NCBI RefSeq assembly: GCF_000012945.1
Contig: NC_007511.1
Span: 2,232,001-2,296,000, forward strand
Length of the DNA: 64,000 bases
Reading direction: 5' to 3'
Origin: Burkholderia lata
Lineage (GTDB): Bacteria > Pseudomonadota > Gammaproteobacteria > Burkholderiales > Burkholderiaceae
Program-made: the position numbers and the translations under genes
Part shown: piece after piece, positions 1 through 32,217 of the stretch
Position numbering within the stretch: the first letter of the stretch is position 1
Layout: the number at the start of each line of letters is the position of its first letter
The notes under the pieces: model-generated
Seen by the model: the letters and a program-made list of their open reading frames with translations, nothing else
The model's database searches: none
What the model was told of the DNA's origin: nothing

Positions 1-373
1 CGATGCCCGCGTCGTTCAGCGCGCGCACGACCTCGAGCCCGCCGAGCACGCCGTAGATGCCGTCGTAGCGGCCGCCCGTCGGCTGCGAATCGGCGTGCGA
101 GCCGGTCATGACCGGCGCGGCGTCGGGATTGCGCCCCGCGCGGCGCGCGAACACGTTGCCCATCTGGTCCACGCGCACCGTGCAGCCGGCGTCTTGCGCC
201 CATTGCACGAACAGGTCGCGCGATTCGCGATCGAGATCGGTCAGCGCAAGGCGGCAGACGCCGCCCTTCGGCGTCGCACCGATCTGCGCCATCCGGTCGA
301 GCGACGCCCACAGGCGATCGCCGTCGACGCGCGGCGCGCTCACGCGCTCAACCACTACGTTGTCGTCACGCAT
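1..373 (-). CDS. Zn-dependent N-carbamoyl-L-amino-acid hydrolase (M20 family), partial
   Basis: Only the N-terminal 124 residues lie in the window; the gene runs off the left edge. The motif TGSHADSQPTGGRYDG (residues 91-105) is the metal-binding signature of the carbamoylase/AmaB branch of M20 amidohydrolases; by family analogy H93 and D104 would bind zinc. Such enzymes hydrolyse N-carbamoyl amino acids to the free amino acid, CO2 and ammonia. The ATG overlaps the upstream gene's stop by 8 bp, so the two are probably translationally coupled. Because that partner belongs to the ATC hydrolase family, N-carbamoyl-L-cysteine is a plausible substrate (inference). A generic hydantoin or ureidopropionate role remains possible. 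Confidence 0.88.
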   Translation of the reverse strand, partial: MRDDNVVVERVSAPRVDGDRLWASLDRMAQIGATPKGGVCRLALTDLDRESRDLFVQWAQDAGCTVRVDQMGNVFARRAGRNPDAAPVMTGSHADSQPTGGRYDGIYGVLGGLEVVRALNDAGI

Positions 374-890
374 CGCCGTTCTCCGGCGCGGCTTGCCGCG
401 CGTAGCGGAAATCGCAGCGCTTGCCGCCCTGCATGATCGTGCTCGTCCGCGTGAGCGCGATGTCCGGCGCATAGCCCTGGATGAAATAGCTGTCGCGCGC
501 GCAGCTCAGCAGGTGCCCGATCTCGCCGAGCCCCATCGCGTGATACATCTCCGCGTAGCTGCAGCGATGCACGTCGTAGTCGTAGTGCGCGTCGTCCGCG
601 CGCTGCACCTCGACATCGAGCGCATCGTCCTTCTCCCACAGCACCTGCAGCGCGATGAACGATTTCACGCTCGTGCCGCCAGGCTCCTGCGCCGCGAACG
701 TGCGGCCGGCGTCGACCGCCGCGCCGCGCACGGCTTCCGCGATCACGGCCTGCGCGCGCTCGGCGCCGAACTCGCGCTTCATGATCTCGTAGATCGGCTT
801 GATGATTTCCGCTTCGATGCGGCGCCGCGCGAGGATCCCGAGGCGCGTGTCCTCGGGGGCGGCGGCGGATGTCTGGGTGGCTTCGGTCAT
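366..890 (-). CDS. L-2-amino-thiazoline-4-carboxylate (ATC) hydrolase-family protein
   Basis: This 174-residue soluble protein resembles the ATC hydrolase family (Pfam ATC_hydrolase), whose Pseudomonas founder AtcB opens the thiazoline ring of L-ATC to give N-carbamoyl-L-cysteine. The recognisable core is the C-terminal half, with Cys and His residues around YDVHRCSYAEMYHAMG and LSCARDSYFIQGY. The start was placed at the ATG giving MTEATQT; an upstream in-frame extension is Arg-rich and overlaps the preceding gene, so it was rejected. The next gene downstream is a carbamoylase, matching the AtcB-AtcC order. Several members of this family act on unknown substrates, so the specific reaction is inference. 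Confidence 0.8.
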   Translation of the reverse strand: MTEATQTSAAAPEDTRLGILARRRIEAEIIKPIYEIMKREFGAERAQAVIAEAVRGAAVDAGRTFAAQEPGGTSVKSFIALQVLWEKDDALDVEVQRADDAHYDYDVHRCSYAEMYHAMGLGEIGHLLSCARDSYFIQGYAPDIALTRTSTIMQGGKRCDFRYARQAAPENGDA

Positions 891-26715: not shown

Positions 26716-27081
26716 TCAGCCCGCGAGCTTCTTCAGTGCATCGAGCACCGCGTCGCCCTTGAACGGCTTCACGATCCAGCCCTTCACACCGGCGGCCTTG
26801 CCGCGTTCCTTCATCGCCGGGCTGCTTTCGGTCGTCAGCATCACGACGTTGACCGTCGAGTTCGCCAGTTCGCCGCGGATCTTCTCGACCATCGTCAGGC
26901 CGTCCATGTTCGGCATGTTCACGTCGCTGATCACGAGGCGCACGCCGGGCGTCGCCTTGAGCTTCGCGAGGCCGTCCTTGCCGTCGACAGCCGTCGCGAC
27001 ATCAAGCCCGTGATTGCGCAGGAAGCCCGCGACCTCGTCGCGCACCGTGCCCGAATCGTCGACCACCAGAATCTTTGCCAT
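26716..27081 (-). CDS. CheY-like single-domain response regulator
   Basis: This 121-residue protein is a lone receiver domain: acidic pocket VDDS (residues 7-10), phosphoacceptor D53 in LVISDVNMPNMDG, switch threonine in VVMLTTES and the conserved lysine in WIVKPF. With no output domain it must act by binding a partner, as CheY does. It is the last gene of the chemosensory-like operon headed by a membrane Hpt/ATPase sensor and is the obvious phosphate acceptor. GGAAGGGGAA precedes the ATG. Target (flagellar motor, pilus, enzyme) is not encoded here. Confidence 0.95.
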   Translation of the reverse strand: MAKILVVDDSGTVRDEVAGFLRNHGLDVATAVDGKDGLAKLKATPGVRLVISDVNMPNMDGLTMVEKIRGELANSTVNVVMLTTESSPAMKERGKAAGVKGWIVKPFKGDAVLDALKKLAG

Positions 27082-27121
27082 GTCGTATTCCCCTTCCTTT
27101 CCTTGTTGCTGACTTCAGTAT

Positions 27122-28081
27122 TCAAAACAGTTCGAGTTCGCCCGATTCGACCATCGGCCCCACGTCCTGCACCGATTCGCGGAAATCCTCCGGCGACCAG
27201 CTCAGGCTGAACACGAAGCGCTGGTCGAGACAGACGGAGCGCCCCGATGCCGGATCGGTCATCCGGTACTTGAAGCAGAGCTGCGGGCAGTCGCCGCCGA
27301 ACGAGATGAATTTCTGCTTGTGATTGACGACGAGCGGCACCTGCACCGGATGGCGGGCCAGCGCCTCGGCGTCGCCGAGATAGCGGTTCTTGAACGCGCC
27401 CCACACGAGGTTGGTCAGTTCGCCGAGCACGCTGTTCACGTCGCGGAAATCCGGTGCGCGGCCGTCGTCGCGCGTGCCGCCGAGCATGTCGAGCAGCGGC
27501 TGCTCGCTCGTCTGCAGCAGCATGTAGCCGCGGCACCACGCGCTTTCGAGCGCGATCAGGCTGAACACTTCGCCGAAGATGATCTGGTCGCGCACGATGC
27601 ACGGCGTTTCGTGCTCGATCGTCATGCCCGGGAACAGGCTGTCGATACGCGCCTCGGTGATCTCCGAGATGCCGCGCACGAGTGCGTTCGGGTAGTCGCG
27701 GCCAAACAGGTACTCGTCGATCGCGCGCTTGAGCGGCGTCATGTCGTCCGCGACGTAGGCCGCGCATGCGACGCGCGCGAGTGCCTCCGGCAGCCCGTCG
27801 CGCGATGCGAGCGACTCGCGGCGCAGGATGATCGGCAGCTCGGGGCGCAGCGCATCGATCTGCGTCGCGATGATCGCGCTCTCGGCCGGCGAGCCGCCGT
27901 AATCCTCGGCCAGCAGGATCGCACCGAGGTCGATGTTCGAGCGCAGCACCTTCAGCAACCGGTTGCGCCGTACGGTCAGGCCGACCAGGTTGTGCTCGTC
28001 GCAGAAACGCTTGATCGCGTCGGCATGCGCGCGACTGTCATCGAGCACGAGCACCTTGCTGACGGGTTTGTCCAGGGTCAT
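27122..28081 (-). CDS. Degenerate receiver plus CheX-like phosphatase domain protein
   Basis: This 319-residue protein combines two domains. Residues 8-125 resemble a receiver (KVLVLDDSRAHAD...), but the usual Asp-Lys-Thr set is not clear, so it may not be phosphorylated. Residues 135-310 look like a CheX/CheC domain with the catalytic pattern ExxN at E221/N224 (GELTNLVWGAF), so phosphatase activity toward CheY-P is plausible. The chain ends SGELELF, matching the end of the preceding gene's product. It lies 40 bp before the CheY gene. Likely signal-ending component of this pathway (inference). Confidence 0.8.
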   Translation of the reverse strand: MTLDKPVSKVLVLDDSRAHADAIKRFCDEHNLVGLTVRRNRLLKVLRSNIDLGAILLAEDYGGSPAESAIIATQIDALRPELPIILRRESLASRDGLPEALARVACAAYVADDMTPLKRAIDEYLFGRDYPNALVRGISEITEARIDSLFPGMTIEHETPCIVRDQIIFGEVFSLIALESAWCRGYMLLQTSEQPLLDMLGGTRDDGRAPDFRDVNSVLGELTNLVWGAFKNRYLGDAEALARHPVQVPLVVNHKQKFISFGGDCPQLCFKYRMTDPASGRSVCLDQRFVFSLSWSPEDFRESVQDVGPMVESGELELF

Positions 28082-28123
28082 CTCAAGGGTTCCTAATGGT
28101 CGGTCTGGGTCGGTCGGAGTCGG

Positions 28124-28705
28124 TCAGAACAGTTCGAGCTCGCCGCCGGTATCCACCGTGGCCGTTGCCGGCACATGGAAATCGACCGGCGCGTTCGCGC
28201 ACACGCACAACGTCGCACCCACCCGCACGTCGCCGTCGAGCGTCAGGTCGTAGGCAGCCACGTGATCCGGCGAAAGTGCGGGCAGGTAGTCGATGCTCGA
28301 TCCGCTCAGCAGATACGGCGTCGACATCCCGAGGTCGGGAAACGGCGCGGTCAGCGCCTGGTTGATCGCGCCGCAGCACAGGTTCGCGACTTCCATGAAT
28401 GCTTCGGGCAGCGGCCGCTGGCTGCTCGTGCCCGCCGTCGCGCCGGCGAAATGGCGGCGCGTCGCATCGTCGTCGCTGAAGCGCAGCGCGAGCAGCAGGC
28501 GGAAATGCAGCGCCGAGATCGTCAGCACCGCGACATGCTCGGGCACCTTCGGCTTCGACCGCGACTTCGCGGGCGCGTGATCCTGCCCGTCGTGGGTGTG
28601 GCCGGCGGACGGCCGGATGTCGCACGCGCCGCCGGATGCGAGCCGCGTGCGCGCCGCGTCGAAGAAAATCCGCTCGAAGCCGGCTTTCGCCTGCGCGCTG
28701 ATCAC
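28124..28705 (-). CDS. CheX/CheC-like protein with ExxN motif
   Basis: This 193-residue protein starts at a GTG overlapping the upstream stop by 4 bp (GTGA). A variable N-terminal part (about residues 1-55, polar, His/Lys-rich) leads into a CheC/CheX-like domain with E105/N108 in FMEVANLCCGAINQAL, the residues that drive phospho-aspartate hydrolysis in CheX. The C-terminus reads GGELELF, the same six-residue end as the neighbouring receiver-CheX protein. It may be a second phosphatase or a scaffolding partner. No close named family was recognised. Confidence 0.75.
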   Translation of the reverse strand: MISAQAKAGFERIFFDAARTRLASGGACDIRPSAGHTHDGQDHAPAKSRSKPKVPEHVAVLTISALHFRLLLALRFSDDDATRRHFAGATAGTSSQRPLPEAFMEVANLCCGAINQALTAPFPDLGMSTPYLLSGSSIDYLPALSPDHVAAYDLTLDGDVRVGATLCVCANAPVDFHVPATATVDTGGELELF

Positions 28706-29445
28706 GCCGCGCCTCCGTCGATTCGCGCGTGCAGCTGCCCGGCGAGCGTCTCGACGGTCGCGAGCGCGGCCGTGATCATCTTGCCGCCGGCCTGGATGTC
28801 CTGGAACGTCGCGGCCGTCACGAGATCGTTGCGGTTCAGGCTGTCGCGATAACTGTTCGACAGTTGCTGCGAGCGCGCGGCCAGCCCGCGCACCTCGCTC
28901 GCGACGATCGAAAAGCCGCGCCCGGCCGTGCCGGCGCGTGCGGCCTCGATCGACGCGTTCAGCGACACGATCGACACGTGCGCGACGATCGCCGACAGCT
29001 CCTGGTTCTTCGTGCGCATGTCCTGGTTCTGCGTGGTCAGCGAGATCATCTGCTCGTGCCAGCGCTCGAAGGTGCCGGCGAGCCCGCGCAGGCGCGCGGC
29101 TTCGTCGGCGATCTTCATCGCGTGCTGCGCGAGCGCCGTTCGATCGGCCGACAGCGCCTGCATGGCGTCGCGCTGCGTGCCGGTCGCGGAGGTCTCGCGC
29201 GCCAGCGCATCCTCGAGCTGCGCCTCGCGCTGCGCCCATGCGTCGGCCGCCTCCGCGTGCACCGACGCGGCGTCGGCGACGCGCGCATCGGCTGCGTCGA
29301 GCGCGCCGCGCAACTGCGCCGTATCACGTTCAAGCGCCCCGACGAGCCGCTTGCGCGTCACACGAAACACGACCGCCGCCACGATTGCGACGACGGCACC
29401 GCCCGCCAGTGCGGCCGCCATCTGGATCATCCACGCCTGCACCAT
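28702..29445 (-). CDS. Miniature methyl-accepting chemotaxis-like protein
   Basis: This 247-residue protein has one N-terminal membrane helix (about residues 5-26), a long Ala/Glu-rich coiled coil, and a shortened MCP signalling region: VSLNASIEAARAGTAGRGFSIVASEVRGLAARSQQLS resembles the tip and one strand of the canonical four-helix hairpin. There is no periplasmic sensor domain, no HAMP domain and no obvious methylation helices. It starts 7 bp after the sensor kinase gene and overlaps the next. It may bridge or tune the kinase rather than sense ligands. Confidence 0.82.
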   Translation of the reverse strand: MVQAWMIQMAAALAGGAVVAIVAAVVFRVTRKRLVGALERDTAQLRGALDAADARVADAASVHAEAADAWAQREAQLEDALARETSATGTQRDAMQALSADRTALAQHAMKIADEAARLRGLAGTFERWHEQMISLTTQNQDMRTKNQELSAIVAHVSIVSLNASIEAARAGTAGRGFSIVASEVRGLAARSQQLSNSYRDSLNRNDLVTAATFQDIQAGGKMITAALATVETLAGQLHARIDGGAA

Positions 29446-29452
29446 CACGTCG

Positions 29453-31834
29453 TCACTCCACCGTGCCGATATCCGCGCTGCGCACACGTTCGTGCGCGAC
29501 GCCCTGGGCAGCACCGTCCGCCGCGAAGCGGGCCGGCAGCGACACGATCGTCTCGAACGCGCGATACGGTGCGCCGACGCGATCGTCGGTGAAACGCAGT
29601 GCGATATCGCCGCCGTCGCGCTTCAGGAAGTTGCGCACCGCGTCCATGCCGACGCCACGGCCCGACACTTCGGTCACAGCATTCGCGGTCGAGAAACCCG
29701 GCCGGAAGATCAGCTCGGCCACTGCGTCGTCGGACAGCGCCGCGTCGTGGTCGGCATCGATCCAGCCACGCTCGCGGGCAATGCCGCGAATCCGGTCGAG
29801 CGCGAGGCCGCGGCCGTCGTCGCTCAGCACGAACCACAGCTCGCCGCCGCCCACGCCGACTGCGATATCGATCGTGCCGGACGCTGCCTTGCCGGCCGCG
29901 CGCCGCTCGTCGGACGATTCGATCCCGTGGTCCATCGAGTTGCGCAGCAGGTGCATGAACACGTTCTTCAGCGTCGCGGCGATCTCGCTGCGCACACGGT
30001 GGCCGTGGCTGTCGATATGCACGACGGGCGCCGGCTTGCCGAGTTCGGCCGCGAGCGACGGCAGCGACTCGATCACGCCGCCGAGCGCATCGCCGATACC
30101 CTGCGTGCCGAGCTGGCTCAGCATGCGGCGCACGGCGTCGCGCGCCGCATGCCAATCGGCCGCGTTCGCCGGATCGGCGCCGTCGAGCACGCGCAGGCTC
30201 TCGCTGATGTGCGCGCGTTCGACCATCAGGAAGTCGGCGCCCTGCACCGCCTCGCCGCTGCGTCCGAGCGTGACCGCGTTGATCGTCGCGTAGTGCTCGA
30301 CCGCGTCGCGCACGCGGGCCAGGTCGTCCATCAGCGCGTCGCGGTTCCACTCGGGGCCGCCGTCCGCGCGGCGCAGCGAGTCGTACGCCTGCTCCGCTTC
30401 ATGGACGATGTTCGTCAGGTGCTGGAGGCTGTACGTGCGCGCATTGCCCTTGATCGTGTGCATGTTGCGGAACAGCGCCGCGACGATCGAGTGATCGGCG
30501 CGTTCGTGCTGGCGAATCATCCGCTCGTTCTCGCTCAAGAAGCCCTTCGCGCTGTGCACGAAGTCGTGGAACTTGTCCTGGCTGATCGACAAAATCTCGC
30601 CAATCATCTCGAGGCGGCGCTGCTGCTCGCCGGCCTGCGCGGTCAGCTCGCGAATCTCGGTCACGTCGCGCACGCACAGCATCAGGCGCACAACCGTATC
30701 GGTCTCGTCGGTGATCGCCGACCAGCTCAGGTCGAGCCACTTGTCGCGGCCGTCCGGCATCCGCTTCGCGACTTCGTTCACCAGCAGGTGCTCGTTGAAC
30801 TCGAAGTTCATGCTGTCTTCGCCGAGGCACGCATGCACGGCCGCATCGACCTGCGAGCGGGCGTCGGAACCGATGTTCGAGTCGTCGAACACGAGCGCCA
30901 TCAGGTCGCGGCCCGCGATGTCGCTCGTCTCGAAGATGGTTTCGAGGTACGCCGAATACTCCGCATGCACGACGCCGCCTTCGACGACGGTCAGGATCCC
31001 CTGCTGCATGTTCTGCAGCATCGCCTGGATGTCGGCCGTCTTCTGCTTGAGCTGCGCCGAGTTCTCCTGGATCTTCTCGATCATCCCGTTGAACGCGACG
31101 ATAGAATGGCCGATTTCGTCCATCCGGCCCACCGGCACGCGGCGCGTGAAATCCTGGCTCGTCGCGATCTCGCTCATCGCCGTCTGCATCCCGATCAGCG
31201 GACGCGTGATCTGGCGATACAGCAGCAGGCCGAGCGCGGTCAGCAGCACGATCACCGTGCCGGCGACGCCCGCGATCGCGGTCGCCGTCGTCGAGAGCAT
31301 CCCGTTCAGCGCGCTGATCGCGTCGTCCTTCTGGCGGTTCTTCTCGACGCGCAGCGTGTCGACGATGCTTTCGAGTTCATCGCGATACTGCGCGACGTTC
31401 GCGAACAGGTACGCCTGCGCCATCTCGGGCTTGCCGTCGGCTTTCATCTTCACGGTGTCGTCGATCGCCGCGAAATAGTTCGTGGCGCTCTCCTTCGCCT
31501 GCGAGACGAGCCCGACCTGCGCCTGGCCGACCGCCGACTTCGCCTGCACGTCGAGCGCGGCGCGCAGCGCGCCCTGCTTCGCCTTCAGCTCGTCGCGCGC
31601 CTGGGCGGCGGTGTTCGCGTCGGGCGCGTAGACGAGCGTCATCGTCGCGATCTGGATGTTCTTCACATCGGCGACGAGATCCGCCGACGCGAGCGCGCTC
31701 GGCACGATTCCCTGGGTGACCTGGCGTACCTCGGACGCGCTCTTGCGTGTCTGGTACACGGCATAGATGCCGATCGCGGACAGCGCGAAGAACGTCAGGA
31801 CGACTAGCAGCGTAATGCGATGACGAATGGTCAT
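29453..31834 (-). CDS. Membrane sensor with HAMP, PAS-like, Hpt and CheA-like ATPase domains
   Basis: This 793-residue protein begins with a membrane helix (residues 8-28), a four-helix-bundle periplasmic domain (about 30-185), a second helix (about 187-210), HAMP (about 211-265) and a PAS-like domain (about 275-400). An Hpt domain follows with H459 in FRNMHTIKGNARTYS, then a CheA-type ATPase (N632 in HLLRNSMDHGIE; DDGRGL; GRGVGMDAV). It thus fuses a chemoreceptor front to a CheA back, but lacks the CheY-binding P2 and CheW-like P5 domains. GGGAG precedes the ATG. It should autophosphorylate H459 and feed the operon's CheY. Confidence 0.9.
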   Translation of the reverse strand: MTIRHRITLLVVLTFFALSAIGIYAVYQTRKSASEVRQVTQGIVPSALASADLVADVKNIQIATMTLVYAPDANTAAQARDELKAKQGALRAALDVQAKSAVGQAQVGLVSQAKESATNYFAAIDDTVKMKADGKPEMAQAYLFANVAQYRDELESIVDTLRVEKNRQKDDAISALNGMLSTTATAIAGVAGTVIVLLTALGLLLYRQITRPLIGMQTAMSEIATSQDFTRRVPVGRMDEIGHSIVAFNGMIEKIQENSAQLKQKTADIQAMLQNMQQGILTVVEGGVVHAEYSAYLETIFETSDIAGRDLMALVFDDSNIGSDARSQVDAAVHACLGEDSMNFEFNEHLLVNEVAKRMPDGRDKWLDLSWSAITDETDTVVRLMLCVRDVTEIRELTAQAGEQQRRLEMIGEILSISQDKFHDFVHSAKGFLSENERMIRQHERADHSIVAALFRNMHTIKGNARTYSLQHLTNIVHEAEQAYDSLRRADGGPEWNRDALMDDLARVRDAVEHYATINAVTLGRSGEAVQGADFLMVERAHISESLRVLDGADPANAADWHAARDAVRRMLSQLGTQGIGDALGGVIESLPSLAAELGKPAPVVHIDSHGHRVRSEIAATLKNVFMHLLRNSMDHGIESSDERRAAGKAASGTIDIAVGVGGGELWFVLSDDGRGLALDRIRGIARERGWIDADHDAALSDDAVAELIFRPGFSTANAVTEVSGRGVGMDAVRNFLKRDGGDIALRFTDDRVGAPYRAFETIVSLPARFAADGAAQGVAHERVRSADIGTVE

Positions 31835-32217
31835 GAGTACAGCTCCCCGCAGCGATTCGGCTTCGATCGCCGTTTGGTCTATTGAAAGAATGTGAGCGCC
31901 GAATTATCGGGGATGGTGTATGACGCTCCGATGACCGGAAATCAATCATTCATTGATAAAAATGAAATGAATAATTGTGCCGAAAGAGCCCTAAAGTATC
32001 GCCGAAATCTGCCGTTAACCTCATGCCACAAGGCTTCACGCGGCGATCCTGCTCGGCCGGAAAATCCTAGATACGGATATTTGATTTTTATTTATTTAAT
32101 CCGCGGATTAACCGAAATCGGGCTTTCGTAAAACGTTTGCGCATTATCGACGAATTCGGTCGAATTCGCGATTTTTTATTTCCGAAGTGTGATTCGACGA
32201 ACGGATGAAAACGATAC
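31835..32217. other. AT-rich intergenic region upstream of the sensor operon
   Basis: This stretch is much lower in GC than its surroundings, especially 31930-32200, and contains no gene. It holds the dyad ATCAAT-N5-ATTGAT (31941-31957), about 110 bp before the sensor start, and a FliA-type promoter on the plus strand (31992-32018). It must also contain the minus-strand operon promoter, which I could not place with confidence. Confidence 0.6.
31992..32018 (+). promoter_or_regulatory. Sigma28 (FliA)-type promoter on the plus strand
   Basis: TAAAGTAT (31992-31999), exactly 11 bases, then GCCGTTAA (32011-32018) matches the FliA consensus TAAAGTTT-N11-GCCGATAA at 14 of 16 positions. It points away from the chemosensory operon, into an AT-rich stretch without a gene. 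Confidence 0.6.

Follow-up and report, generated by a model that had tools for sequence, protein, structure and literature searches.

A CheW-less sensor kinase with receptor-tip, CheX-like and CheY-like partners in a five-gene cassette of Burkholderia lata

Chemosensory kinases are coupled to receptor arrays by the CheW domain. Docking C-termini are also known in chemotaxis, such as the CheZ tail on CheY and the pentapeptide NWETF on receptors. Here we describe a set of five genes, termed the cassette, in a 64,000-nucleotide stretch of Burkholderia lata DNA (the window; contig NC_007511.1, positions 2,232,001 to 2,296,000 of the forward strand). Its kinase carries its own membrane sensor and a CheA-type ATPase, and no CheW domain was detected in it. 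In a survey of CheA, a CheW domain is reported for 100% of a set of 13,673 sequences, the combination of HATPase and CheW is taken as the mark of CheA, and archaeal CheAs were gathered by their CheW (Berry et al. 2023, PMC10782961). Since this definition needs CheW, kinases of the type present in the cassette probably never entered the set. No prior description of the five-gene set was found in the titles, opening lines of abstracts and passages of open-access papers that were consulted, subscription papers lying outside that scope.

The cassette and its five proteins

The window is part of contig C3, one of three contigs in an 8.68-Mb genome; the named database relatives closest to it are proteins of the Burkholderia cepacia complex. 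Five genes run in the same direction on the minus strand, from 31834 to 26716, and encode a sensor kinase (SK), a protein with the signalling tip of a methyl-accepting chemotaxis protein (MCP; the small protein is called mMCP), two CheX-like proteins (X1 and X2) and a CheY-like response regulator (Y). An earlier note, made from the sequence before this analysis, had placed an operon here with spacings of 7 bp, a 4-bp overlap, 42 bp and 40 bp, all of which were confirmed. The overlap is that of the GTG start of X1 with the mMCP stop; an alternative GTG start for mMCP lies one codon upstream, at 29448. The features, in window coordinates and with lengths in amino acids (aa) and transmembrane written as TM, are as follows.

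29453..31834, minus strand: SK, 793 aa; 4HB-HAMP-PAS-Hpt-(reduced P3-like)-CheA-type P4, with no P2 and no CheW/P5
31352..31834, minus strand: SK residues 1-161, 4HB_MCP_1 sensing bundle (Pfam 38.8 bits)
31064..31225, minus strand: SK residues 204-257, HAMP (Pfam 35.4 bits)
30656..31033, minus strand: SK residues ~268-393, PAS-like domain (Pfam PAS 18.1 bits, not reaching the cut-off of 22.6)
30269..30580, minus strand: SK residues ~419-522, Hpt (P1-like) helical region with phospho-acceptor H459 (Pfam Hpt 29.8 bits at 447-510; helices from the model)
29534..30025, minus strand: SK residues ~604-767, CheA-type HATPase (P4) with N632, D672-G676 and G725-G729
28702..29445, minus strand: mMCP, 247 aa; TM-like stretch, coiled coil and MCP signalling tip (Pfam MCPsignal 56.1 bits)
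28124..28705, minus strand: X1, CheX-fold protein, 193 aa; active-site-like E105xxN108, C-terminal GELELF
27122..28081, minus strand: X2, receiver-like N-terminal stretch and CheX domain, 319 aa; E221xxN224, C-terminal GELELF (Pfam CheX 36.5 bits)
26716..27081, minus strand: Y, CheY-like single-domain response regulator, 121 aa; D8, D9, D53, T83, W102, K105 (Pfam Response_reg 84.3 bits)

The claim of the earlier note that a sensor and a CheA-type kinase are joined in a single chain is borne out by the domain layout and the catalytic motifs. A hydropathy scan placed TM-like stretches at SK residues 3-29 and 179-209. H459 and N632 are invariant in 48/48 aligned rows, and the P4 motifs D672-G676 and G725-G729 are identical in all of them. 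SK matches CheA chains in phmmer (E 6e-31), and its P4 resembles CheA P4 structures in Foldseek (TM-score ~0.8). The absence of a CheW-like domain and of P2, also claimed earlier, stood up to a domain search: no CheW domain was found in SK at Pfam E<=1, in comparison with 92.9 bits for the classical CheA of the same genome, no P2 was found, and the chain in the structural model stops ~25 residues past P4. H-kinase_dim likewise had no Pfam match in SK, where the model shows short helices at 540-552 and 558-574. Thus, with Hpt and P4 present and the CheW (P5) domain missing, SK is presumably CheA-like in its working but is not a member of CheA.

The sensor part differs among relatives, being 4HB-HAMP-PAS, 4HB-HAMP-GAF or, in the frame read from locus L033, PAS only; that of L073 is 4HB/TarH-like, below the cut-off. 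The PAS-like region of SK is part of the core common to relatives bearing other sensors, and similarity of L030-L033 to SK starts near residue 250 (tblastn).

The receptor tip is largely preserved in mMCP (LNASIEAARAG..GRGF..VA.EVR.LA), the MCPsignal match spanning residues 131-238, and its tip residues E167 and R170 are invariant in 47/47 rows. It also has a conserved motif, FQDIQAGGKM. A profile of 20 mMCP orthologues matches receptor tips except for a gap of seven residues in the ascending arm, at a position where an E. coli receptor chain has DGIAFQT and, by eye, the MCP of the same B. lata genome has EGIAFQT. The G-I-A-F-Q-T residues presumably include trimer-of-dimers contacts, and, with these missing, mMCP may be unable to pack into a classical array. 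An N-terminal TM-like stretch is present in 40/47 mMCPs by a simple hydropathy scan; no ligand-binding domain was found in mMCP in the Pfam search, and its C-terminus has no NWETF-like pentapeptide. As separate observations, the mMCP of L033 (8084-8896, minus strand) is extended at its C-terminus and ends in DVDFELDF, which resembles the CheX tails described next, and in L072 a gene for an SBP_bac_3 solute-binding protein (92-865, plus strand), a possible sensory input, lies directly before mMCP.

X2 exceeds the curated Pfam cut-off for CheX (36.5 vs 27 bits), and its E221 and N224 are present in 29/29 rows (L047 omitted). X1 shows the CheX fold and E-x-x-N. The two proteins are hardly similar apart from their tails: the C-terminus of X1 is GELELF, or differs from it by one letter, in 47/47 rows, and that of X2 is GELELF, or differs by one or two letters, in 30/30 (the window counted in both; of the X2 ends, 29 were found by script and one was read directly). 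Across the 8.68-Mb genome, a degenerate DNA pattern for the tail matches exactly twice, once at the end of X1 and once at that of X2, and its reversed control has 0 matches. The CheZ of this genome ends in QVDDLLASLGF. Its classical CheA (L165:3201-5450, plus strand) ends in ...GAELAMF, somewhat like GELELF.

Y is the best conserved part of the cassette, with 63-84% identity to its counterparts in L032, L033, L072, L073, L074 and L076; the corresponding values are 39-50% for SK, 33-48% for mMCP, 30-43% for X1 and 42-51% for X2. The acidic pair, phospho-Asp, Thr and Lys (D8, D9, D53, T83, K105) are present in 45/45 rows, and the alpha4-beta5-alpha5 face is nearly invariant. In the same 45/45 rows Y has a Lys where E. 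coli CheY has what we take to be I95. The two CheYs of the flagellar cluster on contig C2 have 38% and 43% identity to Y. The best solved structures for Y are 4h60 and 4hnr (115 bits), followed by E. coli-type CheY rows at <=84 bits. We take 4h60 to be Vibrio cholerae CheY4 and not CheY3, with which its 120-residue length is consistent; W102 of Y is the same beta-5 Trp as that of CheY4. Biswas et al. (PMC3774744), who name 4H60, report a pull-down in which V. cholerae CheY4, although it has the beta-5 Trp, failed to bind FliM.

Distribution, gene company and the missing adaptation genes

At a threshold of E<=1e-60, SK is present in 67/150 sampled genomes of the family, in 9/25 genera, and in 5/369 genomes of a draw from the class (B. 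lata included). The loci of 35/66 other family positives were fetched, together with that of a Caballeronia megaplasmid (L012), which completes a Burkholderiaceae set of 36, and distant matches. The system is thus common in a well-studied family, and in all 35 fetched family positives SK has mMCP, X1 and Y adjacent. Of the loci outside the window with a match to SK, 49 were examined. SK, mMCP, X1 and Y are together in 45 of them, in some with a changed order, and the 45 include all 36 Burkholderiaceae loci; X2 is also present in 30 of the 45. Nine loci beyond the 36 have all five genes (L032, L033, L070-L074, L076 and L170; of these, L070, a Burkholderia, and L071, a Trinickia, come from another collection). 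The order is mMCP-X1-X2-Y ahead of SK in L072 and L073, and SK-X2-Y-mMCP-X1 in L076.

mMCP is missing from just two of the 49 loci, both of which hold a lone SK. Two further exceptions are L034, which has SK residues 1-303 only, followed by mMCP and X1 with no Y, and L011, on an Ideonella megaplasmid, in which the Y match covers residues 1-55 only and X2 is absent. In L011 (9381-16286) the cassette breaks off after the Y fragment, and an integrase and a diversity-generating retroelement (avd, reverse transcriptase) follow.

X1 is kept in all 45 of the loci in which SK, mMCP and Y also stand together, and X2 is optional, so the minimal conserved set consists of SK, mMCP, one CheX-like protein and Y. 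X2 is missing from 15/36 Burkholderiaceae loci, all of which keep X1. An X2 query was run against 22 whole genomes; it matched in 6, and gave no match in 15/15 genomes of the X2-less loci and none in G381. Two phosphatases are therefore not obligatory, and the earlier proposal that the signal is ended by two of them does not, judging from these gene contents, apply to the common core. In L047 and L066 most of the N-terminal part of X2 is lost. One genome (G382) has a second X2-like protein apart from the cassette (L169:8897-9871, minus strand; 30% identity), whose gene adjoins those of a HAMP-HisKA-HATPase kinase and a REC-PAS protein.

The flanks vary between genera and the set stays together; no gene recurs across all genera in the flanks compared. 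In one genome (G388) there are two SKs (L030 and L031, both 4HB-HAMP-GAF), each lying in a fetched stretch of 17-18 kb that holds none of the module genes, and mMCP-X1-X2-Y form a separate four-gene operon without SK (L168). In L072, two Hpt-HATPase sensor kinases lie beside a single module. These layouts suggest that a single output module can take its input from different kinases. Upstream of SK in the window (31850-32050), conserved blocks TTAACGGC, CTTTAG and CCCCGATAATTCG are found in 14 Burkholderia sequences, the window included, and are possibly promoter or operator elements.

The 51 fetched loci and the 64-kb window were searched by tblastn (E<=1e-6) with the CheW, CheR, CheD, CheZ and CheB of the same genome, the identities of the first four queries having been checked. 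CheW, CheR, CheD and CheZ gave 0 matches in this set, with the limit that a very distant CheW could escape a single-sequence tblastn, and CheB gave only ~105-residue stretches in two loci, none of full length. Thus, as the earlier note had it, no cheW, cheR or cheB gene found by these queries is conserved beside the operon. None of the five places in the genome that encode CheW is in the window, and the nearest lies ~335 kb past the end of the window. On C2, a classical che cluster encodes CheA, CheW, an MCP, CheR, CheD, CheB, CheZ and the two CheYs; P2, H-kinase_dim and CheW domains are all detected in its CheA. A second cluster, bearing CheW and Hpt, lies on C3 near 2.63 Mb.

A proposed signalling route and its rivals

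We consider it fairly probable that a CheW-less sensor kinase phosphorylates one CheY, which is reset by tagged CheX phosphatases, with mMCP as a scaffold. A stimulus received by the 4HB domain of SK would be passed through HAMP and PAS to the CheA-type P4, which, to judge from its intact motifs, would phosphorylate H459 of the Hpt. The phosphoryl group would then move to D53 of Y, a step suggested by the motifs and by the gene company. Phosphorylated Y would be reset by X1, and by X2 where present, through the CheX E-x-x-N, as the identical residues and the fold suggest. By analogy with the CheZ tail and NWETF, the GELELF tails may direct both X1 and X2 to the same partner. mMCP is most likely the membrane scaffold where SK, X1, X2 and Y meet; because of the gene layout in G388, it is seen as accompanying the output module and not one particular sensor. 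Direct, E. coli-style binding to FliM is probably not the output.

A wider form of this route is possible, and we hold it tentatively: a CheW-free hub with many inputs and a single output, in which several SKs, their sensors exchangeable, would signal to one mMCP-X1-X2-Y module, and the hexapeptide would serve as an address tag that collects all CheX phosphatases there. If so, a receptor tip would govern a CheA-type kinase, or hold it, with no CheW involved.

Several points weigh against the proposed route. X1 scores below the curated Pfam cut-off for CheX (16.1 vs 27 bits), and for this reason the window protein is termed CheX-fold and not a Pfam CheX member. The roles given to GELELF, as a putative docking tag by analogy, and to mMCP, as a putative scaffold, are conjectural. 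The Trp and Lys of Y are matched at both places in one CheY of the C2 flagellar cluster, so that FliM binding by Y remains conceivable. Full separation of SK from the module is seen in one genome only, and two adjacent kinases in one more. Finally, canonical CheW and FliM were found in 76/76 cassette genomes tested (77 rows, the last a plasmid record; G106 and G887 appear to be the same genome), and this CheW could therefore still serve mMCP.

This last point bears on the reading of the cassette as an annex of the flagellar chemotaxis array, in which the mMCP tip would enter CheW/CheA arrays and SK and Y would tune them. Most of the receptor tip is retained in mMCP, and in the family draw FliM is present in 109/150 genomes, 67/67 with SK vs 42/83 without (Fisher p 1e-13). 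However, genome size confounds this association, because 20 listed of the 41 FliM-free genomes are small, 2.8 Mb or less. Moreover, the mMCP tip lacks the seven ascending-arm residues that canonical receptors have, that of B. lata included, and neither the ligand domain nor the NWETF-like C-terminus is there. We regard such an annex as unlikely. Array independence, which the earlier note had proposed, is plausible.

It is less likely still that Y binds the flagellar switch protein FliM directly, which would make the cassette a second motor input. The presence of FliM in every cassette genome tested and the near invariance of the alpha4-beta5-alpha5 face would fit such an input, but the best solved match to Y, V. 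cholerae CheY4, is reported not to have bound FliM (PMC3774744). The Lys at the E. coli I95 position, though shared with one flagellar-cluster CheY, is likewise unfavourable; the sequence of Y thus speaks against an E. coli-like FliM contact without being decisive. Furthermore, 42 flagellated genomes of the family draw have no cassette, and a sigma-28-like site upstream of SK beat its 30 shuffles in 1/47 sequences (L049). An ordinary two-component system, with Y acting on a non-motility target (cyclic di-GMP, pili or surface polysaccharide) and mMCP a relic, is similarly improbable. Single-domain regulators often act through protein contact, no flank gene recurs across all genera, and no che-cluster enzyme of the B. 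lata genome was found there. However, mMCP is retained in 47/49 outside SK loci and in the separate module, and its tip residues are invariant, which makes relic status unlikely. From the interpretation in the earlier note, then, the fused sensor-kinase without CheW is kept, whereas the two phosphatases, the array independence and the self-containment do not hold as it had worded them.

Comparison with known systems

The relatives keep the parts of the cassette, and one encodes the output genes apart from two sensor kinases; thus, the cassette appears to be a genuine variant form of chemosensory signalling. A CheA-type kinase with a receptor-tip partner but no CheW would reveal an alternative arrangement of tip and kinase, and the cassette offers a small natural system of five proteins in which to test it. 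The tail shared by two unlike CheX-like proteins provides a specific docking hypothesis that is cheap to test.

Unlike in a classical chemosensory system, the tblastn queries found no dedicated CheW, CheR or CheD and no full-length CheB with the cassette. SK shares with CheA, as PMC10782961 describes it, the Hpt, the CheA-type P4 and the absence of P2, which is missing from more than half of CheAs. It differs from CheA by its lack of a CheW domain, its own membrane sensor, HAMP and PAS, and its short P3-like helices. mMCP is like an MCP tip from LNASIEAARAG onward, and differs by the seven residues missing before the tip, the absence of a ligand domain, the presence of one or no TM-like stretch, and FQDIQAGGKM. 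In comparison with the CheX phosphatases of Thermotoga (1squ/1xko) and Borrelia (CheX-CheY, 3hzh), the cassette has two unlike CheX-like proteins per operon, a receiver-like N-terminal stretch in X2, and a GELELF common to X1 and X2. V. cholerae CheY4 (4h60) is like Y as its best solved match and in the beta-5 Trp, and its cluster, che cluster III of V. cholerae, is likewise without cheZ (PMC3774744), whereas Y comes with an SK and CheX partners of its own.

A frame in a Calditrichaeota metagenome-assembled genome (MAG; L077:4293-7541, plus strand) joins ROK, PAS, GAF, Hpt (below the cut-off) and HATPase, with no CheW match. Kinases with Hpt and HATPase_c and no CheW match were also found in a deltaproteobacterium (L075), an unclassified bacterium (L083) and a Bacteriovoracaceae MAG (L089), the Hpt of the latter two being below the cut-off; two of the three have HAMP and one has 4HB_MCP. 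They have ~25-27% identity to SK, and the stretches fetched around them hold no match to mMCP, X1 or X2. Since CheW-less kinases with Hpt and HATPase thus occur elsewhere, the architecture of SK alone is not unique; it is its conserved company that looks new.

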